Below are positions 2,602-64,000 of a stretch of 64,000 nt of DNA, in pieces; the first letter of the stretch is position 1, and each line of letters begins with the position of its first letter. The stretch is taken from contig JASJOG010000108.1 of NCBI GenBank assembly GCA_030142905.1, positions 449,001-513,000 on the forward strand, in the 5' to 3' direction. This DNA comes from Heliopora coerulea (Eukaryota; Cnidaria; Anthozoa; Scleralcyonacea; Helioporidae). The position numbers were made by a program, and so were the translations under genes. A model generated the notes under the pieces. That model did not search any database, had not been told where the DNA came from, and saw nothing but the letters and a program-made list of their open reading frames with translations.

Positions 2602-3042
2602 TTATACTTTTTTTAAAGGCATATGTCCTAAAAAGGTATCCAAAGGATCTCCCGTACGAAGGTACCCTTCATAGGCCTCTAACCACAGACGACCTTTCAT
2701 GAAAACTTGATATAATGTATTATCACAAGTCCAATGTGAAGAGCGATAGTGACAAATTCTTAGATATCCATCCCTGGGCTTTAATGTGTGTGTTTCACCG
2801 TTGCCACCCCAATCCGGCATTGGTGCTGGTGATCCACAAACTATCATGTCTGGTACGCTGTTTGGAAAGTCAGCAGGCAGATAAACACGAAGACGGTATG
2901 TCTGATCACTGTTCGTTGTCATTGTTATCTCCACTTTAGTGTCTCCCCTAGGATCAATCCATTGTACTTTGCCGGAAAAATACGTGTCAAGAATGTCTTT
3001 TTCGATGACCATCCTCCTACGTTGAGCAAGACTCCAAGGCAT
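2602..3042 (-). CDS. E2-like (UBC-fold) protein 1
   Basis: This is an intronless frame of 146 residues starting at the ATG of MPW. The frame stays open 8 codons further upstream but has no ATG there. It reads as a compact E2 core. There is a basic N-terminal helix, beta strands, the E2-type strand and turn LRVYLPADFPNSVPDM, and then a His (HTL) about 12 residues before Cys97 in the strand LRICHY. A Trp follows, and then the tail helix motif KGRLWLEAYEGYL.TG. The Cys sits where the catalytic Cys of ubiquitin-conjugating enzymes sits. The HPN of classical E2s is replaced by HTL, as in divergent prokaryotic E2s. It is the first of three E2-like genes in a row on the minus strand. A perfect IRF-type site lies about 110 bases upstream. 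Activity is inferred. Confidence 0.75.
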   Translation of the reverse strand: MPWSLAQRRRMVIEKDILDTYFSGKVQWIDPRGDTKVEITMTTNSDQTYRLRVYLPADFPNSVPDMIVCGSPAPMPDWGGNGETHTLKPRDGYLRICHYRSSHWTCDNTLYQVFMKGRLWLEAYEGYLRTGDPLDTFLGHMPLKKV

Positions 3043-3152
3043 AACGGCTTGTACAGACGAAACCACCGAAGATCCTACATAGCTTCGAGGTTAAAGCAGA
3101 AGAACCTGAGAAGAACAGACATTTTCAAAGAATTTTGCTGAATTCAGAAGTC

Positions 3153-3162
3153 GAAAGTGAAA
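3153..3162. promoter_or_regulatory. ISRE/IRF-like site upstream of E2-1
   Basis: GAAAGTGAAA, a perfect GAAANNGAAA, about 110 bases upstream of the E2-1 start codon on the opposite strand. This is the core recognised by interferon regulatory factors. Confidence 0.45.
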
Positions 3163-4028
3163 GCTATGGTCAGCGGAAAGCAGTTGTAACGTCACAGGTA
3201 ACGTATCCAATCAAAATGCAAAAGAGAAAAACGGAAATGAATGAAACCGGAAGATCGACGAGTCTACAAAAACTTCACCGCAATTCAACCTGCGTAGAAA
3301 TAATTCAGTAGTTTTGGCAATATTTATATTTCTGCAACAAAAGTACATTATAAAATAAGGTGTATGAGTGAATGAACGTAAGGTTACGTGACAGCTTTGT
3401 AAGCACTGTTGGAGAGTCATTCCACACCATTAGACTCTCCAGGTGATTAGTAAACATTAACACTTCATACTCTTCAGGAATTTTTGATTGTCTCAGTTGC
3501 AATTCTGTTTAAATGACTCTAGCTTACATCAGAGGTTAAGCCATTCCGTTAACGTTGCCAATACCCACATTTTATTTCCATAAGTGTTTTACGAATGGCG
3601 TCATTTGCTCAGAGGTGAAGTTAGCGGCAGTTCCTTGTCGTTTACTGCTGAATCTTCTATTTTACACAACATGTATACAATTACAGGACAGGATTAATCT
3701 TATGGCCATTTCAAGGTCTTAAATCATTCAATCTCGGGGCCTTGCTTATAAAAATCTTCTTCTTTATTGTGGAAGCATAAGTTGAATGGAAATATGAAGC
3801 TCCTCGATATACCCACGGACAACTATTCGAACTTTAACAGATAACACAACAGGCTTTCCTCAATCTCATAACATTCAGTATATGTAAGACTCGACCATCA
3901 GCCCTAAACAACTGTACCTCGTCTGAAAATTGATCTGTTGTTAATCCCTGAGCTGAAGTATTTTAGGTTGAATATCTGTCACATATTTATAATGCAGATT
4001 TGAAGAATGTACATGTCTTTACCATCTC
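3163..4028. other. Intergenic DNA between E2-1 and E2-2
   Basis: It holds the promoter side of E2-1 and the 3' flank of E2-2. I see no further coding frame or RNA gene. Confidence 0.5.
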
Positions 4029-4463
4029 TTAATCCGTATCTTCCAAATAGAAGTCTATTGGACGTCCAGTTTCAAGTGAACTTTCATAGGCCTCTAACCA
4101 TAGTCGTCCTTTCTTGAAGACTTCACACAACTTATTCTCATTGGGTGACCAACAACTCCAGTAAAAATGACATATGTTTACCAGACCATCTCGTTGGTCT
4201 AATGTATGGTGGACATGACTGCTGTTCCATTCTGGCATTGGCTTTGGTGAGTCACAAATTACCATCTCAGGAACACAGTATGGGTAATCTTCGGGGATGT
4301 AGACACGAAGACAGTAAGAATTGTTCCTGTTTGTAGATACTCTTACTTCTACCTTTGTGTTTTCTTTGGGGTTTATCCATTTAACATCCCCGTCAGGAAA
4401 GCCGTCGGCGAGAAGCTTTCGTTCGTGTGAAAGGCGCAAACGTTGACGGGTACTCCAAGGCAT
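4029..4463 (-). CDS. E2-like (UBC-fold) protein 2
   Basis: An intronless frame of 144 residues from the ATG of MPW. It is the same family as the E2-like gene at 2602-3042 but clearly diverged, so this is an old paralogue and not part of the recent duplication. Landmarks are LRVYIPEDYPYCVPEM, then HTLDQRDGLVNICHF with the presumed catalytic Cys98. A Trp follows the Cys by 8 residues, and the tail helix reads KGRLWLEAYE. All E2-core landmarks are present and there is no disruption. It has four extra cysteines (two in the core strands and one each side of the Trp region), so redox-sensitive behaviour is possible. The role inferred from context is accepting an activated small modifier from the E1-like protein of the cluster. 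Confidence 0.73.
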   Translation of the reverse strand: MPWSTRQRLRLSHERKLLADGFPDGDVKWINPKENTKVEVRVSTNRNNSYCLRVYIPEDYPYCVPEMVICDSPKPMPEWNSSHVHHTLDQRDGLVNICHFYWSCWSPNENKLCEVFKKGRLWLEAYESSLETGRPIDFYLEDTD

Positions 4464-5584
4464 CGTATTTTTCAAAAAACAAGTTGTAGTGTCACAGGAA
4501 AGTTGTCGAGTTCTATAGTTAGCAGCAGATGTGTAGATAGTAACTGAAACACGTCACACGTTCTGTATACCGATCAGTTCAATCAACGGCAAACCAACAA
4601 TGGCTTTGCTTTGCAGTTGTTCTCACATGTTGAAGGTTGGGGAATCCCGGGTATCACGAGGTAATACAGGTTAAAAATTGTCCAGAACAAACCTCAAGAA
4701 CGGTTGAAGTATTGCATCCCTATTTGGCCATTCTGATGGAATTTCAAGCAATTGTGATGACTTGCCGTTTCTCCAGGAAGTATTTGCGCCATTCCCGGAA
4801 CTAATTATGTATTTGTCGTATTTTGAATACTTATGGCGAAATAAGAATATCATGCAAATTCCAAAACAATTCCTGACCAAACAGAATGGCTGTTAAAAAC
4901 GAAGTAATCTGGTATTGACAAGTTCATGGCATACCATTAAGTTAGTAATATTGTAATAGAGAGAGATATAAATGTTTTGCTAATTTTTAGGAACTAAACT
5001 ACCAGTGAACAAACATGAGCGCGCAATATCGAACCTTTAAAAACAACAGCTGGATATTAATGAACTTAACACAGCTGCAGGTAAACGGGTTTCCCCTTAA
5101 CCACTAATTAACAATCTCGAGTTTAATTCCTTGAGACAGAAATTTTCATTGTGCGCCAGTTGTTCACTTAGTTTTACATTAGTTTCTTCAAGTACACAAT
5201 AGAACAATTTCAACACGAGTTGACAACAAGCCTACTACAAAATTCTATTATTTGTTATCTGTAGTTTAGGCACGAGGTAGTACTGCTATGATAAAACAAA
5301 GTTCGTTATATTTTCGACAATTCACAAAATCCGAGCAAATATTTAGATGAGATATTGTACGACTGCGTTCAGCCTGATATTTATTCTTGGTTCAAAGATA
5401 GCAATTTTCATCTCCAACGTATAGCATTAATTACCCAAATGATTTATCCAAACGTATTCCGTCATTCCCTGCACAAAATCCATATTGAAACTGGATAAAA
5501 ACCCATGATTTTCGACAGAGTCGACGAACTCTTTCCCCATCTGATACGAACCACGGTAGTAGGATTCTAACTCTTGATCCAACT
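4464..5584. other. Intergenic DNA between E2-2 and E2-3
   Basis: The promoter side of E2-2 and the 3' flank of E2-3. I see no convincing gene, RNA or mobile element. The 69-codon minus frame near 4671-4880 has no start context or homologue I recognise. Confidence 0.45.
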
Positions 5585-6163
5585 TTATATTTTCGCCAAA
5601 TCATCTAAAGCTCTCGCATTGATGAAATAATTGGCCATGGCCAAAAATTGAGGAAAATCGATCAACACTTCGGGCATCAATTGTTCGAACTGTTCGACTA
5701 AGCGACGTTGTTCGGCAGCTTCTTCTTCTGATGGCTCCATTTCATCCACATAATCTTCTATTGGCCTTCCAGTAACAAGATGTTTTTCGTAAGCTTCTAA
5801 CCATTCTTCTCCCTTGTTGAAAACCTCATAGAGCTTGTTCTTTCTCGTCCAACATGACGGTCGGAAAAAGCAGATTTTTAATAGTCCATCTTTAGGCTGC
5901 CATGTGTGAGTACTGTGACCTCCTTCCCATATAGGCATTGGTTTAGGAGAATCACACACCACTAATTCTGGCATTTCGAATGGGTAATTTGGTCCAATGT
6001 AAATACGAAGGCGATAAACATTCCCTTTGCTTGTTCTTACTTCACGTTCAAAGGTCGGCTGTCCGTTCTTTCTTCTGATATGAAATGTTTCACCGTTGAA
6101 GTATCTTTCGAGAAAGTTCTTTTCATACTTCAATCTGGAACGCAAAAATCGATTTTCCTGCAT
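5585..6163 (-). CDS. E2-like protein 3 with C-terminal helical extension
   Basis: An intronless frame of 192 residues from the first ATG (MQENRF). The E2-like core spans about residues 5-140: LRIYIGPNYPFEMPELVV, then HTWQPKDGLLKICFF with the presumed catalytic Cys98, then a Trp, then KGEEWLEAYEKHLVTGRP. Unlike its neighbours it lacks the MPW start and continues for about 50 residues past the core with an acidic stretch (EPSEEEAAEQ) and predicted amphipathic helices. The tail may recruit a partner or position substrate, as C-terminal extensions do in class II/III E2s; this is inference. It is the most divergent E2 of the window, and the His motif is HTW. Confidence 0.72.
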   Translation of the reverse strand: MQENRFLRSRLKYEKNFLERYFNGETFHIRRKNGQPTFEREVRTSKGNVYRLRIYIGPNYPFEMPELVVCDSPKPMPIWEGGHSTHTWQPKDGLLKICFFRPSCWTRKNKLYEVFNKGEEWLEAYEKHLVTGRPIEDYVDEMEPSEEEAAEQRRLVEQFEQLMPEVLIDFPQFLAMANYFINARALDDLAKI

Positions 6164-7556: not shown

Positions 7557-7985
7557 TCATTTCATGTGTCCAAGGTAGAATTCAATGTCTTTCCCAGTAG
7601 TCAACCAACCTTCATAAGCTTCCAACCAAACGCGACCTTTAACAAATATTTCATAGAAGGTGTGCTGAGGGTTCCAACGAGGAGCGTAGTAATGGCAAAT
7701 TTTTAAACAGTTGTCACGAGTTCCAAGCGTATGAGTGCAACCATCTACTCCCCATTTTGGCATGGGTCTTGGTGATCTACAAACTACCAAATCAGGCAAG
7801 CTGTTAGGATAGTCTGGTGGAACATAAACTCGCAGAGAGTAAACTTGATTGCTGTTGCTCTTCATTGTTACTTCAACTTTTGTGTTTCCAGTCGGATCAA
7901 TCCACTGAACATTACCCGGGAAATATTTATCAAGAATTTCTCTCTCGACAGCCAATCGCTGACGCTGGATTGCAGTCCAAGGCAT
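7557..7985 (-). CDS. E2-like protein 4 (recombinant copy)
   Basis: An intronless frame of 142 residues from the ATG of MPW. It has LRVYVPPDYPNSLPDLVV, HTLGTRDNCLKICHYY with presumed catalytic Cys97, and KGRVWLEAYEGWLTTGK. The C-terminal three quarters are nearly identical to the E2 at 19716-20144. The N-terminal part and upstream flank match the E2 at 20926-21360 instead, so the gene looks like a product of recombination between two tandem E2s, with the switch near 7921-7937. It is divergent from the mini-gene at 8594. The frame is intact, so it is likely expressed. Confidence 0.73.
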   Translation of the reverse strand: MPWTAIQRQRLAVEREILDKYFPGNVQWIDPTGNTKVEVTMKSNSNQVYSLRVYVPPDYPNSLPDLVVCRSPRPMPKWGVDGCTHTLGTRDNCLKICHYYAPRWNPQHTFYEIFVKGRVWLEAYEGWLTTGKDIEFYLGHMK

Positions 7986-8593: not shown

Positions 8594-8815
8594 ATGTCCA
8601 GCAGTAAAGACGTTCAAGGTCATTTACAAAAGGTGGCGGAAGGGAAAAGCACGCGACAGAAAATGACGTTTGATCCAACTACTGGGAAATTGAGAGTCGT
8701 GAACGAAGGAACCAATACTGGGGACAACGTAGTTTGTACCGACATGGCTGCCGCTGGCTTCTTCACAAAACTCTTGGAGAGTACAAAATGTTTTTTTTTG
8801 AATGCAAGTCATTGA
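8594..8815 (+). CDS. Mini-protein 1 of the FDPTTGKLRV / M-x3-GFF family (73 aa)
   Basis: The frame starts at ATG in an aaaatcATG context. It encodes MSSSKDVQGHLQKVAEGK, then a basic stretch, the core MTFDPTTGKLRVV, a polar linker, DNVVCTD, and MAAAGFF, followed by a variable hydrophobic tail of 18 residues. The family layout is an N-terminal helix with D-[VI]-Q, a predicted beta hairpin around TGKL, and the conserved end M-x3-G-F-F. I know no named family with this pattern. Its repeated occurrence in a cluster of E1-, E2-, E3- and JAB-like genes makes it a candidate modifier, tag or adaptor. The variable tail after GFF would suit C-terminal processing by a JAB peptidase. Function and fold are unproven. 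Confidence 0.6.
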   Translation: MSSSKDVQGHLQKVAEGKSTRQKMTFDPTTGKLRVVNEGTNTGDNVVCTDMAAAGFFTKLLESTKCFFLNASH

Positions 8816-9737: not shown

Positions 9738-10895
9738 ATGGCTTTGTCTATTAAGGCTTCTTCCACCGATAAACTAGAAAGTTTACTTCAGTGTTCGATC
9801 TGTTTAGAGACACTCGATGATCCACGAACACTGCCATGTTTTCATTCCTTCTGTAAATGCTGTTTAGAAAAATTTGTGAAGAGCTACAGGGACAAGAAAG
9901 CTGGCCAAGACTTAAACTGTCCCGTCTGTCGTTCAGAGTTTACACTGAGTCAGAATGGAGTGTCGGGAATGATTCAAAACCATTTTATCTGCAATATGCT
10001 GGAGGTATTGACTATTCAGCGACAAGTTAAAACTGTTCCTTGCTCACATTGTGAAGAGCCGTCGATCGGGCGCTGCGTAACATGTGAGCTGTTTATGTGC
10101 GAGGATTGTTTACAACCGCACAATAATTATCCAGGCTTCAGTGATCACTCCGTTTTATACATGGAAGAACTATCAAAGTCAGAAAATCAAGCAAAGATAA
10201 AAGGAAGGTCTCGATGCAAGGAACACCACAACAAAAAGCTCAAATTCTATTGCGAAACCTGCGAGGAACTCATTTGTAGATACTGCATGGATTTTGATCA
10301 TATGAGACCTGACCATGTGTGTTTACCTCTGGAGAAAGTGGCCAAGACAAAAATCGAAGCCTTGAAGGAAAGTTATGCAACCCTTGATGACAAATTGACT
10401 GAAGGTCATGAAGCGTTACGAGTATTGAGAAATGTTGCACAATCGCTTGAAAATAACGTACATAAAACAAGGCGAGTAATTAATGAACGAAAAAAGGAAA
10501 TCTTGACTACGGTGGAACAAATGTTAGACAAGAAAGCTGAATCACTAATAGAACAAGCAGAGGAGATATTTCAGTATAAGCACCAAGGAATCGCTGAGCA
10601 AATGAACCAAGTACAAAATTATGTTGATAAATTAAAAGGATCTTCTGATGTGTCCAGCAGTCTGCTTGCGAATGGCAACGACGAAGAAATCGTCGTATCT
10701 CAAAAAGTAATCCAGGAAAATGTAGAAAAGATAAACAATGAATATCCGAGAAATGCAAGCCCTGTCCATGACGACAAAATTCTGACTTACAACAGCGAAC
10801 GGATTGATACTATGCTTATGGTAGACGTCGTGAAAATGTTCGGAGAGGATGAAGGTAGGATATCATTCGCGCAAGTAATTATTAACCAAATTTAA
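9738..10895 (+). CDS. TRIM-like E3 protein 1 (RING, B-boxes, coiled coil)
   Basis: The frame of 385 residues starts at the ATG of MALS; the upstream open frame has no ATG. The RING finger has Cys19, Cys22, Cys34, His36, Cys39, Cys42, Cys61 and Cys64. B-box 1 lies at about 99-140 (CSHCEE...CVTCELFMCEDC) and B-box 2 at about 157-200 (CKEHH...CETCEELICRYC...DH). A coiled coil covers about 205-330. There is no NHL, filamin or SPRY domain. A strong splice donor (gaag|gtagga) ends an exon at 10854 in phase 1. The acceptor gttgcag at 11105 would join in frame to the mini-gene 2 module (11106-11296), replacing the last 13 residues GRISFAQVIINQI. The likely role is E3 ligase, recognising E2 through the RING and oligomerising through the coiled coil. 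It is the only undamaged TRIM of three. Confidence 0.8.
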   Translation: MALSIKASSTDKLESLLQCSICLETLDDPRTLPCFHSFCKCCLEKFVKSYRDKKAGQDLNCPVCRSEFTLSQNGVSGMIQNHFICNMLEVLTIQRQVKTVPCSHCEEPSIGRCVTCELFMCEDCLQPHNNYPGFSDHSVLYMEELSKSENQAKIKGRSRCKEHHNKKLKFYCETCEELICRYCMDFDHMRPDHVCLPLEKVAKTKIEALKESYATLDDKLTEGHEALRVLRNVAQSLENNVHKTRRVINERKKEILTTVEQMLDKKAESLIEQAEEIFQYKHQGIAEQMNQVQNYVDKLKGSSDVSSSLLANGNDEEIVVSQKVIQENVEKINNEYPRNASPVHDDKILTYNSERIDTMLMVDVVKMFGEDEGRISFAQVIINQI

Positions 10896-11119: not shown

Positions 11120-11296
11120 ATGTCCAGCAGTAGAGATGTTCAACGTCCGTTACAAATGTTGGCAGAAGGGAAAAACCCGCGAGAGAAACTGGTGTTTGAT
11201 CCAACTACTGGAAAATTGAGAGTCGTGATCGAAGGAACCAATTCTGCGGACAATGTGGTTTGCGCCAACATGGCTGCACTTGGCTTCTGTGGATAA
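11120..11296 (+). CDS. Mini-protein 2 / alternative last exon of TRIM-1 (58 aa)
   Basis: From its own ATG it reads MSSSRDVQ, then the core LVFDPTTGKLRVV, then NVVCANMAALGFCG and stop. It is shorter than its paralogues because it ends right after the conserved M-x3-G-F motif. Upstream, gctgttgcag at 11105 is a splice acceptor in phase 1, and the frame from 11106 (DKEKI) is continuous with this protein, so the region can be the last exon of TRIM-1. It lies just right of a tandem-duplication junction at about 11080-11090, which placed the mini-gene behind TRIM-1. Whether it is expressed alone, as a TRIM fusion or both is open. Confidence 0.55.
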   Translation: MSSSRDVQRPLQMLAEGKNPREKLVFDPTTGKLRVVIEGTNSADNVVCANMAALGFCG

Positions 11297-11692: not shown

Positions 11693-12240
11693 CCAAATCT
11701 TGGCCATAGCTTGTCATAGAACCAAACAAGTCGTTTTCCCAGGAAATCAGACGTCCCGCTGAGCGAGGAGGGGCAGGTGAAGAGAAACGAATGAATTTAC
11801 TTTCGCACGATGTCTTTAGTCTACTCACTCACTTGACATGCACTGGGCCAAAAATGTTGGTCACATTTACTTCTATCAAAGGCGTAAACTTTTGCTTTTC
11901 ATGCATGTCTCCCAAAAGTTTATTAACCTTTTAACCGGCATTGTTATCATTTGGCAACTTATTAATTTTACTTCGGCTTACTCCAGACAACTCTACTGAT
12001 CAAGGGGAGACCTCCAGAAAACCTTCGCAATAAAGGGTTAAAAGTAAGTTCTTTCCACTTTAATTAGATCTCGTGTATAATGACCCGTGATAAAAACGTG
12101 AGGTCCACGAATAAAACCCACGATTCACGATAATTTGTCTACAGTCCTCGCTTCCGGGTAAATAAATTTGAAGGATTTTGGCTGTTTCATTTTATTCCTG
12201 TACATTTAGCGTTGTTGAAGTGAAGAAAACGTCTACTTCG

Positions 12241-13690
12241 ATGGCTTCGTCCATTAATGCTTCTTCGAGCGAAAAACTAGAAAGTTTACTTCAGTGTTCG
12301 ATCTGTTTAGAGACACTCGATGATCCACGAACACTGCCATGCTTTCATTCCTTCTGTAAATGCTGTTTGGAAAGATTTGTGGAGAGCTACAGGGACAAGA
12401 AAGCTGGCCAAGTCTTAAACTGTCCCGTCTGTTGTCCAGAGTTTACACTGAGTCAGAATGGAGTGTCGGGAATGACTCAGAACCATTTTATCTGCAATAT
12501 GTCAGAGGTATTGAACATTCAGCGACAAGTTAAAACTGTTCCTTGCTCACATTGCGAAGAGTCGTAGATCGGCAGTTGCGTAACATATGTCAGCTGTTTA
12601 TGTGCGGGGATTGTTTACAACCACACAATAATTATCCACGTTTCAAAACCAGAAAATCAAGCAAAAATAAAAGGAAGGTCTCAATGCAAGAAACGCATCA
12701 ACAAAAAGCTCAAATTCTATTGCGAAACCTGCGAGGAACTCATTTGTAGATACTGCATGGATTTTGATCATGAGACCTGACCATGTGTGTTTACCTCTGG
12801 AGAAAGTGGCCAAGAAAAAAATCGAAGACTTGAAGGAGAGTTGTGCAACCCTTGATGACAAATTGACTGAAAGTCATGAAGCGTTGCGAGTATTGAGAAA
12901 TGTTGTACAATCACTTGAAAGTAACGTTAGTAAAACAAGGCGAGTAATTAATGAACGAAAAAGGGAAATCTTAACTACCATGAAACGAATGTTAGACAAG
13001 AATGTTGAATCACTGATAAAAGAGGCAGACATGATATTTAAGAATAAGTACCAGGCAATCGCTGAGCAAATGAAGCAAGTACAAAATTATGTTGATAAAT
13101 TAAAAGGATCTTTGGATATGTCCAGCAGTCTGCTTGCAAAATGGCAACGACGAAGAAATCGTCTTCTCTCAAAAAGTAATCCAGGAAAATGTAGAAAAGA
13201 TAAAGAACGAATATACGAGAAATGCAAGCCCTGTCCATAACGACAAAATTCTCATTTACAACAGCGAACTGGTTGATACTATGCTTGTGGTAGACGTCGT
13301 GAAAATGTTCGGAGAGGATGAAGGTAGGATATCATTCGCGCAAGTAATTATTAACCAAATTTAAGCAAACTAACGTCAACTAGCTTTCAACGGCTGTATT
13401 TTTCCGGTGCCATAGTACGTTGAATATTTGTAAACATGGGGACAAAGGTGTGGAAAGTACATAAAATCTTCTCCAGTAACTTTTTACAAATTGTAGTTAG
13501 CCATAATGATTGCTATCAATTGCTAATTTATTATATTTTTTGATATTTCAGGTCATTCAGAAATAGTAGTTGAAGGAGAAGAGGTACAAGAGCGCTTAAC
13601 CTTCGACCCAACTACAGGAAAGTTGAGGATTACAGATAATACAGATAATTTTGTTGCAATGCAGATGGCTCAGCAGGGGTTTTGCCCATG
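12241..13690 (+). pseudogene. TRIM-like gene 2, disrupted
   Basis: It is a close copy of TRIM-1 starting at ATG 12241. The RING is intact, although its last loop reads CPVCC. A TAG stops the frame at 12565 in B-box 1. Small indels and a roughly 36-base deletion follow between B-box 1 and B-box 2. A two-base deletion near 12772 and a one-base insertion near 13139 shift the frame again. The 3' donor (gaag|gtagga, exon end 13323) and an acceptor (atttcag, 13551) survive. They would join in phase to a last exon at 13552-13690 encoding GHSEIVVEGEEV, LTFDPTTGKLRI and MAQQGFCP. A RING-only product of about 108 residues remains possible. The gene arose by tandem duplication inside unit I. Confidence 0.8.
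13552..13690 (+). CDS. Module exon of TRIM-2 (FDPTTGKLRI ... MAQQGFCP)
   Basis: The exon follows a consensus acceptor and starts in phase 1, matching the TRIM donor at 13323. It encodes 46 residues: VEGEEVQERLTFDPTTGKL, RITDNTDNFVAMQ and MAQQGFCP. It aligns with the stand-alone mini-proteins over the core and the terminal M-x3-G-F motif but lacks their N-terminal D-[VI]-Q helix. Its own frame is intact although the upstream TRIM is broken. Confidence 0.5.
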
Positions 13691-13867
13691 AACCCGCAAA
13701 TTTCACAAGCATCCGCACGCATAAACGCCAGTAGTAATTTTCCCGTGCATTTTGTGGCTTGACACCAGAGCCTCTGTAAACGTGTTTCCAGCAACCGTAA
13801 CCGCAGCAAACGAAATCTTCTGTTGTCTTTTTTCTACTTTCACAACTCAGGCTCTAGCTTCTTCCGA

Positions 13868-15829: not shown

Positions 15830-16039
15830 ATGGATAGTAAAGACATCCAAAGTTATTTATCCAGCACAGCAAGTGGGAAAGACAGTGATCGACAGAAACT
15901 GACCTTCGATACAATTACTGGGAAGTTGAAAGTTTCCGAGGAAGTCGAACACCCTGACAGTCAAGTTACAGTCGAAATGGCGAAGGACGGCTTCTTTACG
16001 CGACATCCAATGACCATGGAAATAGCAGATTACTTTTAA
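15830..16039 (+). CDS. Mini-protein 3 (69 aa)
   Basis: From ATG in a strong context (gaaaaATGg) it encodes MDSKDIQSYLSSTASGK, the core LTFDTITGKLKV, an acidic linker, SQVTVE and MAKDGFF, then a 15-residue tail. It is a second subfamily: TI replaces the PT of the others, and the linker is acidic. The copy in unit II (26671) differs by one residue, S to D/G class, while the flanking DNA has changed more, which favours protein-level constraint. It sits about 2 kb upstream of JAB-1 on the same strand. It is a candidate modifier or tag like the other mini-proteins. Confidence 0.62.
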   Translation: MDSKDIQSYLSSTASGKDSDRQKLTFDTITGKLKVSEEVEHPDSQVTVEMAKDGFFTRHPMTMEIADYF

Positions 16040-17984: not shown

Positions 17985-18911
17985 ATGTCGAGAAACTTTA
18001 CTGCTTACGTTTACGAAAATGACTACAAAGAGATGCGAAAGCTTGTCCAGCAGTATCCAAATATCGAAACTGGAGGAGATCTGTTTGGTTTGTGGCAAGA
18101 CAAGGAGAATGTTGTGATCCAACTCTTCATCGGCCCCGGCAAAAACTGCCAACGAATCACAACGTCTTTCTACCAAGATGTTAATTACTTGCACAAAGTT
18201 GGAACAGTGATCACAAGGGAGGAAGGCCTGTGCAAAGTTGGCGAGTGGCACTCCCATCACCAAATTGGTATGCCTCGTCCAAGTGCATCAGACCACCGCA
18301 CGGTGTTGTCGAACATGCCACAGCTTGGACTCAGCCAATTTGTCCTTTTCATCGCCAGCATTGAGAATTCTTTTTCAAGAAGAGAACCAGTGAAGCGTTC
18401 ACGTGATATCGCCCTCGAGCAGATCAAAATCCGACCTTTCCTGTTCCGCGAAGGCTTACGTCGTGATGAACAGCCTATTGAAGGTAAAATTGTCCAGATT
18501 AAAGGCGAAAATCCACTTTATGCAAAGAACAAAGCCAAGCATGCCATAGAACAGGGAGCTGAGCCTCCACCCAGGCAGCGTGAATATGTTGGAGGTAAAC
18601 AGGACAAGATTCGAGAGGGCAGTGATACAATGAGAAGTAAAAGTGATGAATCCCATTTTTTCCGAAAAGAAAGCTCTCCGACAGATAAAAACACATCGCC
18701 GAACAGAGGCTACGCCCAGCGGCATTCCCAACCGCCCGAACGTATTACCACGGTGAAGGAGACGCCAAAGCTTAAACCATCCTCGATGGCTACACCCGTA
18801 GCTGTTACACTGTTTCAGAGAGAAACTCGCCGGAGTCAGGATAATTCTAGTCCTCAAGTTAATGTTGGTAGAATGAGCGGGAGAGGATTTTTCTCAGGGT
18901 TTGATATGTAA
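17985..18911 (+). CDS. JAB/JAMM isopeptidase-like protein 1
   Basis: An intronless frame of 308 residues. The JAB domain spans about 1-150, with Glu28 in NIETGGDLFG. The metal-binding signature GEWHSHHQIGMPRPSASD has His89, His91, Ser100 and Asp103. Spacing is H-x-H-x(8)-S-x2-D, one residue longer than the usual x(7). A basic, Ser/Pro/Arg-rich disordered region follows, about 165-295. The C-terminus reads VNVGRMSGRGFFSGFDM and carries the same M-x3-G-F-F pattern as the mini-proteins. By family it should be a zinc-dependent peptidase that removes or matures a ubiquitin-like protein. It lies 2 kb downstream of mini-gene 3 in the same orientation. Its duplicate at 28386 is about 90% identical by eye. 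Confidence 0.8.
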   Translation: MSRNFTAYVYENDYKEMRKLVQQYPNIETGGDLFGLWQDKENVVIQLFIGPGKNCQRITTSFYQDVNYLHKVGTVITREEGLCKVGEWHSHHQIGMPRPSASDHRTVLSNMPQLGLSQFVLFIASIENSFSRREPVKRSRDIALEQIKIRPFLFREGLRRDEQPIEGKIVQIKGENPLYAKNKAKHAIEQGAEPPPRQREYVGGKQDKIREGSDTMRSKSDESHFFRKESSPTDKNTSPNRGYAQRHSQPPERITTVKETPKLKPSSMATPVAVTLFQRETRRSQDNSSPQVNVGRMSGRGFFSGFDM

Positions 18912-19715: not shown

Positions 19716-20144
19716 TCATTTCATGTGTCCAAGGTAGAATTCAATGTCTTTCCCAGTAGTCAACCAACCTTCATAAGCTTCTAACCAAACGCGACCTTTA
19801 ACAAATATTTCATAGAAGGTGTGCTGAGGGTTCCAACGAGGAGCGTAATAATGACATATTTTTAAGCAGTTGTCACGAGTTCCAAGTGTATGAGTGCGAC
19901 CAGCTGTTCCCCAGTTTGGCATGGGTCTTGGAGATCTACAAACCACCAAATCAGGCAAGCTGTTAAGATAGTCTGGTGGAACATAAACTCGTAGACAGTA
20001 AACTCGATTGCTGTTGCTCTTCATTGTTACTTCAACTTTTGTGTTTCCAGTCGGATCAATCCACTGAACATTACCCGGGAAATATTTATCAAGAATATTT
20101 TTCTCAATCGCTAATCTTTGCTGCTGGTCTGGGCTCCAAGGCAT
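19716..20144 (-). CDS. E2-like protein 5
   Basis: An intronless frame of 142 residues starting at ATG (MPWSPDQQQ). It has the E2 core with LRVYVPPDYLNSLPDLVV, HTLGTRDNCLKICHYY with presumed catalytic Cys97, and KGRVWLEAYEGWLTTGK. It differs from E2-4 mostly in the first 20 residues, where E2-4 carries the sequence of E2-6. One substitution, Leu for Pro in the PPDYP turn, changes a conserved E2 position and may mark weaker constraint. A perfect ISRE-like site lies about 110 bases upstream. Confidence 0.73.
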   Translation of the reverse strand: MPWSPDQQQRLAIEKNILDKYFPGNVQWIDPTGNTKVEVTMKSNSNRVYCLRVYVPPDYLNSLPDLVVCRSPRPMPNWGTAGRTHTLGTRDNCLKICHYYAPRWNPQHTFYEIFVKGRVWLEAYEGWLTTGKDIEFYLGHMK

Positions 20145-20925: not shown

Positions 20926-21360
20926 TTATCCTTGCATGTGGCCAAGGTAGAAATCCATTGGCTTTCCAGTTGCCAAATGACCTTCGTAGGCTTCCAGCCA
21001 AACGCGTCCTTTGACAAATACCTCATAGAACGTGTGTTCGGCGTTCCAACGATTTTCATGATAGTGACAAATTATTAAGTAACCTTCACTAGTACGGCCC
21101 AACGTGTGAGTATCGCCAGAGCTACCCCAGTTCGGCATGGGTGCTGGCGAACTACGAACCACCATAGTGGGGAGGCTGTTGGGAAAATCTGGAGGGACGT
21201 AAAGTCGAAGACAATACACTTGATTGCTGTTTGTAGTCATCGTTACTTCAACTTTCGTGTTCCCAGTTTGGTCAATCCACTGAACCCTTCCCGGAAAATA
21301 TTTCTCAAGAATTTCTCTCTCGATAGCCAATCTCTGACGTTGGATTGCAGTCCAAGGCAT
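20926..21360 (-). CDS. E2-like protein 6
   Basis: An intronless frame of 144 residues from ATG (MPWTAIQRQ). It has LRLYVPPDFPNSLPTMVV, HTLGRTSEGYLIICHYH with presumed catalytic Cys98, and KGRVWLEAYEGHLATGKP. The ttggtgtttcag just upstream resembles a splice acceptor, so a 5' non-coding exon is possible. It is divergent from mini-gene 4, as E2-4 is from mini-gene 1. Its 5' part and flank match E2-4. Confidence 0.74.
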   Translation of the reverse strand: MPWTAIQRQRLAIEREILEKYFPGRVQWIDQTGNTKVEVTMTTNSNQVYCLRLYVPPDFPNSLPTMVVRSSPAPMPNWGSSGDTHTLGRTSEGYLIICHYHENRWNAEHTFYEVFVKGRVWLEAYEGHLATGKPMDFYLGHMQG

Positions 21361-21962: not shown

Positions 21963-22169
21963 ATGTCCAGCAGTAGAGACGTTCAAGGTCATTTACAACA
22001 GGTGGCAGAAGGGAGAAACACACGACAGAACCTGGCGTTTGATCCAACTACTGGGAAATTGAGAGTCGTGAACAGAGGAACCAATATTGGGGACAACGTA
22101 GTTTGTACTGACATGGCTGCCGCTGGCTTCTTCGCAAAACTCTTGGAGAGTACAAAATGGTTATTTTGA
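21963..22169 (+). CDS. Mini-protein 4 (68 aa)
   Basis: The unit II copy of mini-gene 1. It encodes MSSSRDVQGHLQQVAEG, the core LAFDPTTGKLRVV, DNVVCTD, MAAAGFF and the tail AKLLESTKWLF. The core and terminal motif are unchanged relative to mini-gene 1, while the tail and the linker vary. The tail is shortened by one small frameshift after ESTK, showing that the end beyond GFF tolerates change. Confidence 0.6.
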   Translation: MSSSRDVQGHLQQVAEGRNTRQNLAFDPTTGKLRVVNRGTNIGDNVVCTDMAAAGFFAKLLESTKWLF

Positions 22170-23099: not shown

Positions 23100-24152
23100 A
23101 TGGCTTCGTCTATTAAGGCTTCTCCGACCGATAAACTAGAAAGTTTACTTCAGTGTTCGATCTGTTTAGAGACACTCAATGATCCACGAACACTGCCATG
23201 TTTTCATTCCTTCTGTAAATGTTGTTTAGAAAAAATTGTGAAGAGCTACAGGGACAAGAAAGCTGCCCAAGACTTAAACTGTCCCGTCTGTCGTTCAGAG
23301 TTTACACTGAGTCAGGATGGAGTGTCGGGAATGATTCAAAACCATTTTATCTGCAATATGCTGGAGGTGTTGACTATTCAGCGACAAGTTAAAACTGTTC
23401 CTTGCTCACATTGTGAAGAGCCGTCGATCGGGCGCTGCGTAACATGTGAGCTGTTTATGTGCGAGGATTGTTTACAACCGCACAATAATTATCCAGGCTT
23501 CCGTGATCACTCCGTTTTATATATGGAAGAACTATCAAAGTCAGAAAATCAAGCAAAGATAAAAGGAAGGTCTCGATGCAAGGAACACCACAACAAAAAG
23601 ATCAAATTCTATTGCGAAACCTGCGAGGAACTCATTTGTAGATACTGCATGAATTTTGATCATATGAGACCTGGCCATGTGTGTTTACCTCTGGAGAAAG
23701 TGGCCAAGACAAAAATCGAAGCCTTGAAGGAAAGTTATGCAACCCTTGATGACAAATTGACTGAAGGTCATGAAGCGTTGCGAGTATTGAGAAATGTTGC
23801 CCAATCGCTTGAAAGTAACATAAATAAAACAAGGCGAGTAATTAATGAACGAAAAAGGGAAATCTTAACTACGATGGAACGAATGTTAGACAAGAAAGCT
23901 GAATTACTAACAGAAGAAGCAGAGGAGATATTTCAGTATAAGCACCGAGGAATCGCTGAGCAAATGAAGCAAGTACAAAATTATGTTGATAAATTAAAAG
24001 GATCTTTGGATATGTCCAGCAATCTGCTTGCAAATGGCAACGACGAAGAAATCGTCTTATCTCAAAAAGTAATCCAGGAAAATGTAGAAAAGATAAAGAA
24101 TGAATATCCGAGAAATACAAGCCCTGTCCATGACGACAAAATTCTGATTTAA
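23100..24152 (+). CDS. TRIM-like E3 protein 3, C-terminally truncated
   Basis: The frame of 350 residues from ATG 23100 has an intact RING (same eight ligands as TRIM-1), two B-boxes and a coiled coil. A TAA at 24150-24152, where TRIM-1 has a Tyr codon (TAC), ends it about 35 residues early. Downstream the old frame continues open from 24180 (MVDVVKMFGEDED) through an acidic minisatellite to the conserved donor gaag|gtagga (exon end 24351). A phase-matched exon at 24582-24769 follows. The truncated protein keeps every E3 domain and could work, but without the C-terminal module. It could alternatively be a decaying copy. Confidence 0.68.
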   Translation: MASSIKASPTDKLESLLQCSICLETLNDPRTLPCFHSFCKCCLEKIVKSYRDKKAAQDLNCPVCRSEFTLSQDGVSGMIQNHFICNMLEVLTIQRQVKTVPCSHCEEPSIGRCVTCELFMCEDCLQPHNNYPGFRDHSVLYMEELSKSENQAKIKGRSRCKEHHNKKIKFYCETCEELICRYCMNFDHMRPGHVCLPLEKVAKTKIEALKESYATLDDKLTEGHEALRVLRNVAQSLESNINKTRRVINERKREILTTMERMLDKKAELLTEEAEEIFQYKHRGIAEQMKQVQNYVDKLKGSLDMSSNLLANGNDEEIVLSQKVIQENVEKIKNEYPRNTSPVHDDKILI

Positions 24153-24581: not shown

Positions 24582-24769
24582 GTCATTCAGAAATGCTAGT
24601 TGAAGGAGAAGAGGTACAAGAGCGCTTAATCTTCGACCGAACTACAGGAAAGTTGAGGATTACGCGTTCAGATTATACAGATAATTTTCTTTTTACGCAG
24701 ATGGCTCGGGAGGGCTTTTACCATGAACCCGCAAATTCCACAAGTATCCACATGCATGAATGCCAGTAG
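24582..24769 (+). CDS. Module exon behind TRIM-3
   Basis: After an atttcag acceptor, in phase 1, it encodes GHSEMLVEGEEVQERL, IFDRTTGKLRI, NFLFTQ, MAREGFY and a 19-residue tail ending HECQ. It is the equivalent of 13552-13690. The Pro of FDPTTGKL is Arg here and the terminal motif reads GFY. With the stop in TRIM-3, translation of this exon would need another splice route. Confidence 0.45.
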
Positions 24770-26670: not shown

Positions 26671-26880
26671 ATGGATAGTAAAGACATCCAAAGTTATTTA
26701 TCCAGCACAGCAAGTGGGAAAGACAGTGGTCGACAGAAACTGACCTTCGATACAATTACTGGGAAGTTGAAAGTTTCCGAGGAAGTCGAACACCCTGACA
26801 GTCAAGTCACAGTCGAAATGGCGAAGGACGGCTTCTTTACGCGACATCCAATGACCATGGAAATAGCAGATTACTTTTAA
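26671..26880 (+). CDS. Mini-protein 5 (69 aa)
   Basis: The unit II copy of mini-gene 3, identical except for one residue (SGRQ for SDRQ). It has the core LTFDTITGKLKV and the end MAKDGFF plus tail. Near-complete protein identity, beside indels and insertions in the flanks, supports it as a real coding gene. Confidence 0.63.
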   Translation: MDSKDIQSYLSSTASGKDSGRQKLTFDTITGKLKVSEEVEHPDSQVTVEMAKDGFFTRHPMTMEIADYF

Positions 26881-35222: not shown

Positions 35223-35429
35223 TCATATAAAAGATATCAGAGTATTTGATTTAAAGATGCAAGCAAAGAATCCTGACGCGGCCATTTTCGTGGCGACAAC
35301 GTTGTCCGGATTGGGAGATCTGGTCACGCGAAGTTTGCCAGTCGTTGGGTCAAATTCTAACTTCTCTTGCGGCTCATCTCCCCGTGCTACCTTGGAAAGA
35401 TGTCCTTGGATATCTCTGCTGTTCGACAT
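35223..35429 (-). CDS. Mini-protein 6 (68 aa)
   Basis: From ATG at 35429 it encodes MSNSRDIQGHLSKVARG, the core LEFDPTTGKLRV, NVVATK, MAASGFF and the tail ACIFKSNTLISFI. It is outside the duplicated units and on the opposite strand, so it is an older paralogue. The constant features across this distance are the D-[VI]-Q helix, FDPTTGKLRV and M-x3-G-F-F, which shows that these are the constrained parts. The linker and the tail after GFF vary. Confidence 0.62.
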   Translation of the reverse strand: MSNSRDIQGHLSKVARGDEPQEKLEFDPTTGKLRVTRSPNPDNVVATKMAASGFFACIFKSNTLISFI

Positions 35430-39433: not shown

Positions 39434-40871
39434 TTAACGGTTGTAACGACGACTATTCCCATGCTGGAGGCATGAACGCACTGCATCGACAACTGTGCGA
39501 CAAATATCCATATCACTTTTGTAGTGATAATCCAGACCCACACGATTACCGCGAGAATCCCAAAGAACAGGCGCTTGTTTCGGGAAATTAAGTGGAAAAT
39601 CTAAACAATATCCACCATTCAAATTGAACTGAAGGTTGTGAGTAGTAGCATCTCGACTCATGTCCACTTGAATGGATGCACTATTCATGTACTGGACCAA
39701 CGACTGCAAAAGATTTACGCCTTCTTCACCTGAGTACCACTGCTCTTTCCTGGTTTCCGGATCTCGTACTTCAACACGGGATGGAAAATTTTCAATCAAA
39801 CTCGATAGTGAACGGATTTCATTTTCTTCTGACCGTGATGCGTACTTCGCACCAGCCTCGTCGATCGCCTTTGTAAGCGGATAGTAGAGTCTGAACGAGC
39901 TGTTGCCAGCTAATACATCTAAAATTATTGCACAGAGTATGTTATTTCAATAAATTCAACTCATATCATCCGAATTACCGAATAGCATAATTTATTTTTT
40001 AAATAATAACAGCTTAACAAAAGAATAAAATTTCATTCCAACGTAGATTTTCTGAGCATATTACAGTAGGCAACAGAATGCCTTCCGATGCGATGTCAGT
40101 TCGCAAAGTTATCCAAAGCTTCAGAGAAAACTTTGACCCATTCTCAGCATAAACTTCATAGTCAATCAATGCGACAGCTACAAAATTACCATGATTACTG
40201 TGGGTGCGTTACACATACTAGCCTAAGTCATAAAAAATTGTCATTTGAATCCTTCGTCCAAAAGCATTCCTACCTTCTTTACATAGTGATCCGTGATCTT
40301 GTTCACGATCTTTTCTCAAATAGTATTCTCCACTCAGTTCTTGTTGAGATAAGTCCACGAACAGTAGCACATGTTCAGTGGAACGAACAAACAGTTCATA
40401 AGCTGAAAAGAAAATTTATAAATGATTTTATATATATAATGCACACATTCATAAGTGTATATTCATCAAAACAACCTTGGGAACAATAAAAGGTCTTACG
40501 CCTATACTGGCTTGGCATCGACAATTTCAACTGACTCTAGTCACACGTCCTCATGTGACAGTCTTACCTTGGCTTCTCTCGTCATTGGAGCCAGAGAACC
40601 AGTAACCAAGTTTTAACATGGCGTGTTTGTTCCACATGATGTCTTCACATTTTCTGTTGTATTCGCTGTGTAACACACTTTTAACTGTGGAGTTCTTTTT
40701 AAATCCTTTGCCTGGACCAGTGACGAACTGAATCACGGGCTGTTTTAACGAATTTCGCCATAAGCCGAACAGACAGCCTCCGACAGAACTACCATTGCTT
40801 TGTTGTATGGCGTGAACAATTTGCCACAGTTCTCCTGCGTGTAGCAACACTTGTAAGTTAGATTGACTCAT
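39434..40871 (-). CDS. Catalytically dead JAB-fold protein B (3 exons)
   Basis: Exons 40568-40871, 40274-40402 and 39434-39918 join in phase to 305 residues. The exon positions and phases match those of protein A, so they are tandem paralogues. JAB framework: GGCLFGLWRNS and VIQFVTGPGKG. Ser29 replaces the catalytic Glu, and GYWFSGS replaces GEWHSHH. Exon 2 has the strand HVLLFVDLS. Exon 3 starts DVLAGNSSFRL and has the C-terminal domain with WYSGEEGVNLLQSL, MSRDATTHNLQF and CLDFPLNFPKQAP. A perfect ISRE-like site lies 75 bases upstream of the ATG. Confidence 0.7.
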
Positions 40872-40945
40872 GGCGACTACAGCTGACGACCAGCAAAAAG
40901 AAGCAAAGCCTTAGTCTAGCTCAAACAAAAATGGAAGTAGAATCC

Positions 40946-60513: not shown

Positions 60514-61428
60514 TCATTTGTTCCGCTTACTGCAACTAAAGCAGTGTTTTCGGAGAGTTTCAATAACTTGATCCACTTGATATTCATATGAATGGCCTTT
60601 TGCGTGCTTTCGATTTGCCCTCGGCACAATTACAGTGTTTCCTCGTTCGATGATGAGATTTTGCCTCGGAAAATCAGGTGGAAATCGCAAGACCCAACGG
60701 ATTTGGTGATGGAGGAAAGAAAATTCGAGATAACGCGAGCGCAGAATTTTGTCGATATCAGATTCGTTATTGATAAACTTGTCCAACTCGCTGTGCAGGT
60801 GTTGAACAAAAGCCGCTCCAGACGAGCTTTCGAACCATAAAGAATCTTGGGATGGTGAAGAGCGTTCTATCTTGCTCGGTTTTACCTTTCTAACTTCTGC
60901 GCCACTGGCTGTCTGGTTTGCAACTGCTTCATCAATCATAAAGACATTGTTTTTCTCAATGATTTTAACATCGATGGCGCTGTGCGTATGGGACGAAGCA
61001 GTGAAAAGCCATGGCCACAATTTTACTTCTTCAGATTCAATAGTGGCAATTACTAGAAGAAAGTGCTCCACACCAGACGGGAAGTGTTTCCAGATGCTGT
61101 TTAGATCACCGCCACTTGGCTGCCTAAGTCGCAGACGGTGGTGTGAATGCCATTCCCCGATGTGGCACATCATAAACTCCTTATTGAGGAAGTTTCCTAC
61201 TTTCTTTAAGTACTCAATGTCTTGGTGAAACGAATGAGTTTCATGACGACAATACACTCCAGGCCCGATCACAACGTTCACGTAAGGATTTTTATTTTGG
61301 GTCCACAGTCCGAAGAATTGTCCACCGGTTTCACTGTTAGGGTATTGCAAGACCCAGTCCTTGATGCGTTCATAGTCATTTTGAAAGAGCAATACAACAG
61401 GCTTTGTACATGTCATGACTGACAACAT
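60514..61428 (-). CDS. JAB/JAMM isopeptidase-like protein 4 with C-terminal RWD/UBC-like domain
   Basis: An intronless frame of 304 residues. The JAB domain spans about 5-150. Glu33 is in NSETGGQFFG, and His94, His96, Ser105 and Asp108 lie in GEWHSHHRLRLRQPSGGD, so the metal site is complete. After a short linker, about 200-300 form a second domain: LWFESSSGAAFVQHLHSEL, RYLEFSFLHHQIRWVLRF, then PPDFPRQN. It is shared with the inactive JABs A and B and resembles an E2/RWD-like fold without a catalytic Cys. It lacks the GFF and CaaX ends. It lies 20 kb from the rest of the cluster, beyond three unrelated genes. A perfect ISRE-like site lies 37 bases upstream. Confidence 0.78.
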   Translation of the reverse strand: MLSVMTCTKPVVLLFQNDYERIKDWVLQYPNSETGGQFFGLWTQNKNPYVNVVIGPGVYCRHETHSFHQDIEYLKKVGNFLNKEFMMCHIGEWHSHHRLRLRQPSGGDLNSIWKHFPSGVEHFLLVIATIESEEVKLWPWLFTASSHTHSAIDVKIIEKNNVFMIDEAVANQTASGAEVRKVKPSKIERSSPSQDSLWFESSSGAAFVQHLHSELDKFINNESDIDKILRSRYLEFSFLHHQIRWVLRFPPDFPRQNLIIERGNTVIVPRANRKHAKGHSYEYQVDQVIETLRKHCFSCSKRNK

Positions 61429-62979: not shown

Positions 62980-63238
62980 CAGGGGCGGATTAACAGCCGG
63001 CGGGACCCCCTGGCCAGATTTCACGACGGGGGGTCTTTGCTTGAATTTGATTTAGGACGAACATTAGTCTACATATATAAGCTTAATTATAGCACCTGAT
63101 TGATACAGTCAGAATTTTGTCCGTTGGCCTGCGTTACTCGTTACAAACGAGCCAGCATTTCCTGTTGAAATGCGGGGCGCCCTCTATTCGAAGGCCATCG
63201 GCATTTGCCGAGCTTGCCATGGTGTTAATCCGCCCCAT
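62980..63238. mobile_element. hAT-like MITE with 8-bp target duplication
   Basis: It begins caggggcggattaaca and ends with the inverted tgttaatccgcccca(t). It is flanked by perfect tgtgagac repeats (62972-62979 and 63239-63246). 259 bases, non-coding. Confidence 0.75.
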
Positions 63239-63466
63239 TGTGAGACAATATATCGTATGTTCTCTTCATATTTCAGGAGAAAATTTAGGAAGAATGGCTT
63301 TAAAAAGCACTCGAAATCCGCCAATAAGAATTTAAAATTACCAATCTCCATTTTTTTTTTTACTTCACACGTAACATGCCCAGGTACCGACGGAGATCTT
63401 CATGTGATCAGCGACAGAACTAACGACACCAGAATGTTCGGAAAAATAACAGTATAAATGGCTATC

Positions 63467-63545
63467 ATTATACCATTATATAACATACTGCATAATATAT
63501 TATATTGTAATATATTATATAATAATGTATTATATAATATTATAG
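63467..63545. repeat. AT-rich palindromic tract
   Basis: Repeated tatataat and attatata units make several overlapping palindromes about 180 bases before JAB-5. It is probably a degenerate microsatellite. Confidence 0.6.
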
Positions 63546-63727
63546 CATTAATTGCTGTTAGGCCTTCTGGAATGACTCATTGCGCAAGAAACCAAAACGC
63601 GCGTCACGCGATGAAAACACGGTTCTCGTGACCTGTGAAAAATTAGATCAGCTGTTAATAGCGATGCCGAACCAAATCCTCAGCTTTCCACAAAACTTAA
63701 AGCCAATAACTGTTCATGATTAGCAAT

Positions 63728-64000
63728 ATGACGAGTAAAACCTTCAAAGTATTTATCTACGAGGAGGAACTCGAGTATCTAAAGTGGCTCGTGTTACAGA
63801 GACCTAACATTGAGACTGGTGGTGACTTGTTTGGTTTGTGGAGAAGTGATGACGACGTTCTTGTTCAGATCATCCTTGGCCCAGGACGAAACTGCTCAAG
63901 AACAAAGACCACATTTTTTCAAGATGCACAATATTTGGATAAGGTAGGCTCGTATTTGGCATCATCCCAGGGGCTCTGTAATCTCGGAGAATGGCATTCA
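63728..64000 (+). CDS. JAB/JAMM isopeptidase-like protein 5 (cut by window end)
   Basis: ATG at 63728, open to the last base, 91 codons. It has the family start (YEEELEYLKWLVLQRPN), Glu29 in IETGGDLFGLW, GPGRNCSRT, FFQDAQYL and LCNLGEWHS, so the window stops inside the HxH motif right after His90 and Ser91. It is closest in wording to JAB-1 to JAB-3. The rest of the metal site and the C-terminus are not visible. Confidence 0.75.
   Translation, partial: MTSKTFKVFIYEEELEYLKWLVLQRPNIETGGDLFGLWRSDDDVLVQIILGPGRNCSRTKTTFFQDAQYLDKVGSYLASSQGLCNLGEWHS

Follow-up and report, generated by a model that had tools for sequence, protein, structure and literature searches.

Several bacterial gene sets unite E1-like, E2-like and JAB enzymes. 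According to the accessible part of the summary in PMC11354881, BilABCD consists of a modifier, an E2, an E1 and a JAB: BilA carries a pair of ubiquitin-like domains, BilB is marked by a CEHH motif, and a cysteine domain is found in the Bil E1. In the accessible part of PMC1779556, Iyer et al. (2006) distinguish operon types 6a-6e, in which E1-like, E2-like and JAB genes occur together; type 6d includes a beta-grasp protein with a C-terminal glycine and a conserved protein of alpha-helical type, and its E2 lacks the usual histidine. In the type II cyclic-oligonucleotide-based antiphage signalling system (CBASS), Cap2 holds E2 and E1 in one protein. We analysed a stretch of 64,000 nucleotides from the coral Heliopora coerulea (assembly GCA_030142905.1, contig JASJOG010000108.1, positions 449,001 to 513,000 of the forward strand), hereafter the window, which carries genes for an E1, E2s, JABs and a mini-protein (mini) of about 60-70 amino acids (aa). 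Judged by sequence and gene order, the nearest bacterial relatives of these genes form a separate operon, JAB-E2-mini-E1, which is neither Bil nor CBASS.

The window holds a cluster of bacterial-type genes

All 1588 open reading frames (ORFs) of at least 25 aa in the window were searched with profiles built from bacterial loci alone, and reversed ORFs served as decoys. The profiles retrieved one E1, six E2s, five JABs and two further, degenerate ones, and eight minis (Table 1). E-values were 7e-134 for the E1, 6e-41 to 1.5e-30 for the E2s, 5e-45 to 2e-29 for the JABs, 1.5e-17 and 2.4e-12 for the degenerate JABs and 6e-17 to 2.6e-6 for the minis (n = 8). The next-best real window ORFs beyond this set reached 0.62 (E2), 0.81 (JAB) and 0.094 (mini); among the decoys, the E1 profile had no match and the best E-values were 0.46 (E2), 0.19 (JAB) and 1.0 (mini). 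This control is partly circular, as window- or animal-derived profiles had served to pick out the bacterial sequences of JAB, E2 and mini; their E1 neighbourhood is independent.

The gene cluster is real. A first-pass annotation, made from the DNA letters, had listed one ThiF-type E1, six E2s with a Cys at the catalytic position, five JABs (four with a complete metal site and one cut by the window edge) and two inactive JABs, and all of these were recovered. It had also called the E1 and JAB bacterial-like; E1, E2 and JAB are indeed of bacterial type and clustered together. Its count of at least six minis rises to eight, of which m3 and m6 look like 3' exons. The three TRIM genes that it named are present, but only TRIM1 is intact, TRIM2 being frame-broken and TRIM3 ended by a stop. 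Part of the copy number is accounted for by a segmental duplication of about 10-12 kb (approximately 6.9-18.7 kb versus 19.1-29.1 kb), in which seven blocks, each of more than 250 bases, align at 89-97% identity.

The catalytic motifs of the E2s and JABs are intact. The His...Cys motif is kept in all 6 window E2s and in 71 of 71 bacterial E2 sequences. In alignment A4 (25 rows), R, E, Y, P, P, His, Cys, W, K, W and E show no variation, the His lying 12 residues ahead of the Cys; in the HPN...C arrangement of classical E2s, the His occupies a comparable place before the Cys. The best PDB matches of the E2 profile, from E 0.0009 (FANCL, RNF25, UBE2T), support the E2 fold only. No Pfam family reached the cut-off for the three bacterial E2s scanned, two of the four window E2s scanned gave weak RWD/Med15/UEV matches below it, and PHROGs gave no match for two E2s. 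In the four complete window JABs, E-TGG and HSH-x8-S-x2-D are visible; JAB alignment A5 (14 rows) keeps E, H, H, S and D in every row, and 64 of 65 bacterial JABs fit a loose JAMM pattern. Searches of the PDB gave no match for JAB1 alone and two weak ones for the JAB alignment (0.016). JAB4, the bacterial JABs and the second exons of the degenerate JABs share a C-terminal RWD/E2-like domain; each degenerate JAB would be a gene of two exons, with this domain encoded by the putatively joined second exon.

Could the window, or its enzyme genes, be bacterial contamination of the animal assembly? Contamination would fit the bacterial type of the enzyme genes and the lack of introns in most of them. 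These genes are, however, interleaved with TRIM genes and splice-like exons, the guanine plus cytosine content stays between 0.31 and 0.43 in 2-kb steps over the stretch, and the E1 relatives of named anthozoans and a sponge cluster together, away from bacteria. The window E1 is 98% identical to a protein from an ENA contig and 71% identical to LOC114525714 of the octocoral Dendronephthya gigantea; other named animal relatives come from Actinostola, Desmophyllum and the sponge Oscarella. The window DNA looks animal, and we consider contamination highly improbable.

A bacterial JAB-E2-mini-E1 operon

Alignment A1 (21 E1 sequences) led to 115 confirmed relatives in genome_contigs, the best 80 of which were kept; 73 close E1 loci among these 80 form the base of the census. 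JAB, E2, mini and E1 lie on one strand and in that order in 53 of the 73 loci. The remainder comprise JAB, E2 and E1 without a detected mini (12 loci), E2, mini and E1 (5), mini and E1 (1), E2 and E1 (1) and E1 alone (1). A small ORF lies between E2 and E1 in 11 of the 11 loci inspected among the 12 without a mini (L031 was left out), with an aromatic pair near its end in ten and a single Trp in L061. The operon reaches the end of the stretch in L009, L017, L042, L045 and L046. The mini is fused to the N-terminus of E1 in L004, L006, L007, L036, L047 and L070, and likewise in 7 of the 21 E1s of A1, of which P0072 and P0094 come from the same organisms as L006 and L004. No other evidence ties the mini to the cascade as strongly as the operon slot and the fusion to E1; by its gene context, the mini is a core part of it.

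By record title, hosts of the operon are cyanobacteria, Bacteroidota, Caldisericota/Cryosericota, Verrucomicrobiota and others. Among mobile carriers, the phage collection gave none, plasmids two distant records (38% identity) and viral contigs one weak partial locus; at the limits set, these collections thus yielded no phage or plasmid carrier. In the window all four parts of the cassette are present with their catalytic residues kept (E2 His...Cys, JAB JAMM), but the genes do not follow the operon order: they are multiplied and scattered over both strands, which suggests a descendant of the operon and not the operon itself.

Comparison with described systems

The window E1 and JAB match PADLOC models of CBASS type II Cap2/Cap3 (E1-E2 1.5e-30; JAB 1.2e-15), and JAB1 resembles the 6A E2-E1-JAB protein (NCBIfam 6A-MBL, 3.9e-10, far below the curated cut-off). 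A predicted model of the mini-E1 fusion P0046 (predicted local distance difference test, pLDDT, 77; predicted template modelling score, pTM, 0.66) gave Foldseek matches to Cap2 (top), Bub, UBA5, MoeB and ThiF, all mainly in the E1 part; its Z list was headed by UBA5 and MoeB, tied. In contrast to Cap2, E2 and E1 are separate ORFs, both in the window and in the bacterial loci where the two were found; a further difference from CBASS type II is the mini between E2 and E1 and the C-terminal RWD/E2-like domain of the JAB. No CD-NTase was found among the small selection of bacterial neighbour proteins scanned. Pup of actinobacteria is small too, but its ligase is glutamine-synthetase-like and it is not known to use an E1, E2 or JAB. 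The mini recalls Pup in its size and low predicted order, and some of the loci add an AAA+ partner; the accompanying enzymes are of a different type.

BilABCD shares the four-part set of modifier, E2, E1 and JAB. Compared with the Bil proteins as given in the accessible part of PMC11354881, the mini, at about 65 aa, is short for two domains (its model, pLDDT 63, is weak), the E2 has its His upstream of the Cys, and the conserved catalytic Cys of the Bil E1 has no invariant equivalent: only the four zinc Cys are invariant, the next (RHxCG) occurring in 175 of 194 rows. The E1-like/E2-like/JAB grouping is also that of types 6a-6e, and 6d even has a small protein; by their description in the accessible part of PMC1779556, none of the five types corresponds to JAB - free E2 - mini - E1. 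The type 6d E2 lacks the upstream His that is invariant here, and no alpha-helical partner gene of the 6d kind was seen between the four operon genes, the flanks having been clustered rather than folded. In Bub, going by PDB titles, BubCD is one unit, with BubB and BubA, whereas E1 and JAB are separate genes here.

The first-pass annotation had likened the cluster to Bil and to the Cap2/Cap3 genes of CBASS. As membership this is not supported, with E1 and E2 separate and no invariant catalytic Cys in E1; its idea of an expanded animal version of a bacterial E1-E2-JAB pathway is in the main correct as regards the type of the enzymes and their clustering, and gains strength from the bacterial tie between mini and E1 by operon and fusion. 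In the literature searched, outside most subscription journals and including the accessible parts of PMC1779556, PMC11354881, PMC7159879 and PMC12424679, we came across no account of such an operon or of an animal counterpart.

Table 1. Features of the window. E-values refer to bacterial-built profiles.
Feature	Position	Strand	E-value	Other evidence
E2a, His...Cys motif	2602..3042	-	5.7e-41	
E2b	4029..4463	-	2.2e-33	
E2c, C-terminal extension	5585..6163	-	1.5e-30	
E2d	7557..7985	-	6.1e-39	
Mini m1	8594..8815	+	5.6e-17	
TRIM1: RING, B-boxes, coiled coil; intact	9738..10895	+		donor-like site 10855 in phase with m2
Mini m2, may double as last exon of TRIM1	11120..11296	+	6.7e-12	
TRIM2, split over several frames, broken	~12172..13361	+		
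Mini exon m3, behind splice-acceptor-like site, downstream of TRIM2	13552..13691	+	1.5e-6	
Mini m4	15830..16039	+	9e-12	
JAB1, complete JAMM site	17985..18911	+	2.2e-42	Pfam Prok-JAB 6.9e-6
E2e, duplicate of E2d	19716..20144	-	1.7e-37	
E2f	20926..21360	-	1.7e-40	
Mini m5, duplicate of m1	21963..22169	+	2.4e-16	
TRIM3, RING/B-box region intact; stop at 24150, upstream of shared donor-like site	23100..24152	+		
Mini exon m6, behind splice-acceptor-like site, downstream of TRIM3	24582..24769	+	2.6e-6	
Mini m7, duplicate of m4	26671..26880	+	1.9e-11	
JAB2, duplicate of JAB1, complete JAMM site	28386..29252	+	8e-43	
JAB3, complete JAMM site, long C-terminus	29902..31269	+	7e-43	
E1, ThiF-type adenylating enzyme, 446 aa, single ORF	31919..33259	+	7e-134	Pfam ThiF 1.5e-35; clade with cnidarian/sponge E1s
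Mini m8	35223..35429	-	2.1e-13	
RWD/E2-like exon, probable second exon of 38037 gene (putative join)	36413..36985	-		domain in bacterial JAB C-termini, best L002 E=3.1e-9
Degenerate JAB exon, metal ligands lost	38037..38618	-	1.5e-17	
RWD/E2-like exon, probable second exon of 40554 gene (putative join)	39434..39946	-		domain similarity
Degenerate JAB exon, metal ligands lost	40554..40910	-	2.4e-12	
JAB4, complete JAMM site and C-terminal RWD/E2-like domain	60514..61428	-	5.2e-45	
JAB5, cut by window edge	63716..64000	+	1.9e-29	

Features of the mini-protein

The mini consists of a helix-like N-terminal part, a hairpin with the pattern LxFDPxTGxLxV and a segment mostly ending in G-F-F/A. The G and F are invariant in mini alignment A2 (46 hand-chosen rows, with L069, which has RFA, left out). 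A profile search gave 286 relatives at E 0.01 or better; among the 120 listed, GF follows residue 25 in all 120, QDGFA occurs in 64, and no Pfam domain was found on any. The residues beyond GFF differ in length and sequence among animal minis, as expected of a removable tail. No Pfam family reached the cut-off for the two minis scanned, and PHROGs gave no match for three minis. For the mini of L014, three weak Pfam matches (best RibLong, 0.0095) and one weak NCBIfam match (YPDG, 0.0041) all fell below the cut-off, and the PDB match of the mini profile, 7pvp (1.1e-5), was set aside as no stretch passes alone. In L067 and L037 the mini unit is present twice. The L067 operon (Chlorobiota; 7068-7814 and 6438-7357) carries two mini units in one ORF together with two E2 genes, recalling poly-ubiquitin.

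Descent of the animal genes

The window E1 scores 382 bits against P0077 of the cyanobacterium Halomicronema and about 52 bits against UBA5, so that its nearest relative does not lie in the canonical eukaryotic E1 families. The first-pass annotation had held its proposal open to challenge by enzymes nesting inside standard eukaryotic families; looked at for the E1, no such nesting was found. In a midpoint-rooted tree of 78 E1 rows, which carries long-branch warnings, the 28 animal rows grouped with support 100, the cyanobacteria with 97, and both together with P0074 with 96. With long branches removed and no outgroup (39 rows, root not placeable), supports were 100/100 for the animals (11 rows), 95/97 for the cyanobacteria and 100/97 for the other bacteria. 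With three distant loci as outgroup, the 11 animal rows again grouped (100/100), and animals, cyanobacteria and P0074 formed one clade (99/98). The animal rows, from corals, an anemone and a sponge, are one group in all three trees. Sponge-type rows are the first to split from those of cnidarians, which is what a transfer older than the sponge/cnidarian split would give; several transfers may also have occurred. In the E2 tree, which agrees less firmly, the 20 animal rows (95) stand beside cyanobacteria with a support of 88, in a group including L069.

A bacterial rather than standard eukaryotic origin of the window enzymes is clear from these comparisons, and the cassette was probably acquired from bacteria long ago. 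The phylogeny that the first-pass annotation had suggested thus gave bacterial-type enzymes and a single animal clade of E1s. The E2 and mini of three relatives share a longest contig of equal length (P0121/P0165, 18383; P0131/P0195, 18210; P0137/P0224, 3109), which hints at E2-mini linkage in other relatives.

A putative conjugation pathway and its alternatives

We consider it fairly likely that the cluster is an animal descendant of the bacterial JAB-E2-mini-E1 cassette, acquired early from a donor near cyanobacteria and multiplied in the coral, in which E1 and E2 attach the mini and JAB trims or removes it. The E1 would adenylate the C-terminal end of the mini, near the conserved Gly-Phe tail. 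The E2 cysteine would then take the mini from E1 and hand it to target proteins, perhaps with the assistance of TRIM RING proteins in the coral, and JAB would trim the variable tail of the mini, strip the mini from its targets, or both.

Several observations weigh against this reading. In the E1, the two CxxC pairs (four zinc Cys) are invariant in 194 of 194 and 191 of 191 rows, and beyond them no Cys is: 175 of 194 rows have the RHxCG Cys and 115 of 193 have one at a KDCD-type site, and no further Cys column exceeds 40%. A classical E1 thioester is thus not evident. Nor do all minis carry the Gly-Phe tail, which is GY in L062, L064 and L065 and RF in L069, and glycine is absent from 10 of 11 divergent mini-slot ORFs (DYY, PYY, PYF, PFF, VFY); this weakens the model of an exposed C-terminal glycine, and with it that glycine as a constant attachment point. 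The AlphaFold model of the mini, a helix-hairpin-helix of low confidence (mean pLDDT 63, pTM 0.30), does not support a ubiquitin fold. No JAB was detected in L011, L056 and L063 despite room for one. As to descent, the JAB tree groups the five window JABs (93) with a backbone lacking resolution, and an E1 tree uniting animals with the other bacteria loses only 3.83 log units, and the approximately unbiased test does not reject it (p-AU 0.316). Cyanobacteria were expected to emerge as the demonstrated sister group of the animals; despite the 99/98 clade, the test keeps the alternative, so that a cyanobacterium-like donor is favoured, not proven.

Selection differs between the parts. The ratio of non-synonymous to synonymous substitution rates (dN/dS) was 0.16-0.30 in the E2s (5 of 15 pairs with computable, unsaturated dS) and 0.18 and 0.17 in the 2 of 10 JAB pairs with unsaturated dS. 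For the minis, 8 of 28 possible pairs were compared over 45-69 codons: young pairs gave 0.61, 0.94 and 0.62 (m1, m2, m5) and 1.26 (m3/m6), a further point against the pathway, m4/m7 gave the only low value, 0.24, and three pairs with m8 were saturated. The enzymes thus appear constrained, and the young minis relaxed or diversifying. Such high values in some mini pairs, along with two degenerate JABs and one broken and one truncated TRIM, could mean that the coral copies have decayed or taken on other uses and that no conjugation cascade works any more. Intact ORFs, conserved catalytic residues and E2 and JAB dN/dS well under 1 where measurable speak otherwise, as does the retention of the E1 from sponge to corals; the relative P0110, from EukProt, bears a transcript-assembly style name, which is a source label only. 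We regard the relic explanation as unlikely.

A stronger competitor, though still a rather doubtful one, is that the mini is not attached to proteins. MccA is a small peptide substrate of MccB, and by analogy the mini could be a substrate or regulator of E1, or a docking element for E1 and E2, while E2 and JAB serve another, unlinked modifier such as host ubiquitin. However, an E2 with His...Cys and a JAB with a full JAMM site accompany the mini, and we know of no MccB-type peptide-antibiotic system with such an E2 and JAB. Nor was any other modifier noticed in the operons, although flank clustering covered ORFs of at least 90 aa and a small additional modifier could be missed. Conjugation of the mini appears to us the best reading, one we hold as reasonably probable.

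TRIM genes and a putative splice link

A donor-like site, AAG|GTAGGA, in phase 1 is kept in all three TRIM copies (10855, 13324, 24352), and after each TRIM an acceptor-like site of matching phase precedes a mini exon (m2, m3, m6). Candidate introns joining TRIM coding sequence to the mini exons span 10854-11106, 13323-13552 and 24351-24582. The predicted TRIM1-m2 join leaves the frame open and ends in ...GFCG. As background, each region holds 3 to 5 donor sites with 7/9 matches, one each in phase 1. Given this background and the common descent of the TRIM copies, the TRIM-mini link, drawn from co-duplication and a predicted in-phase splice, is a lead and no finding.

Neighbours of the bacterial operon

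A Clp-like AAA+ gene lies at most 1.5 kb downstream of E1 in 21 of the 73 loci, mainly in Bacteroidota, L064:9269-11935 being one case (62 loci have 2 kb of sequence there); Pfam assigned these neighbours for two examples. Among 20 long Walker-B ORFs checked for the ClpP loop, IGF was found in L064 and L065 and GLGF in L003, in a distant gene not beside the operon, and L075 was not judgeable. As a ClpP-binding loop is mostly lacking, the Clp-like neighbours would be ClpB-like; with so few such loops, direct degradation by ClpP-linked proteolysis is not indicated.

PtuA, a defence ATPase, lies directly downstream of E1 in L012 (3.2e-92) and L019 (2.2e-66), with PtuB also in L012 (8e-45); these Septu-like spans are L012:8674-10615 and L019:9212-10609. 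Among other downstream proteins, PADLOC pointed to an IetA-like AAA gene in L035, the Clp-like proteins of L064 and L078 matched the AAA parts of other defence models, and seven proteins had no match (one each from L024, L014, L030, L029, L053 and L046, and the SH3 protein of L078). Seven cyanobacterial loci (L001-L006, L010) share a gene of one family upstream of the operon, on the minus strand and in divergent orientation; that of L006, the sole one scanned, is NB-ARC/STAND-like. Together, the neighbour genes suggest roles in conflict or stress.

Some proteins downstream of the bacterial E1 start with a mini-like hairpin, such as VFDPRTGEL, YIFDPETGEF or LVYNPKTGEF (L023:9115-9588, L036:9230-9478, L059:9100-9540, L054:5019-6707, L024:9251-10033, L078:11282-12061). 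Such proteins could act as partners of the system or be its targets.

Implications

The coral set resembles ubiquitin tagging but seems to use its own tag, so that animals may have an undescribed protein-tagging pathway. If the mini is conjugated, a modifier possibly outside the ubiquitin fold would be served by ubiquitin-type enzymes, in bacteria and in animals. This would allow a direct test of how bacterial tagging systems turn into animal pathways and offer a candidate immune pathway for corals. The bacterial operon is itself a ready laboratory subject. More speculatively, cnidarians and sponges may carry a tagging pathway of their own, with a non-ubiquitin modifier bearing an aromatic Gly-Phe tail, ubiquitin-type E1, E2 and JAB, and a bacterial source tied to AAA+ unfoldases and defence genes, into which coral TRIMs would have been wired by splicing the modifier on; we hold this wider picture to be possible but tentative.

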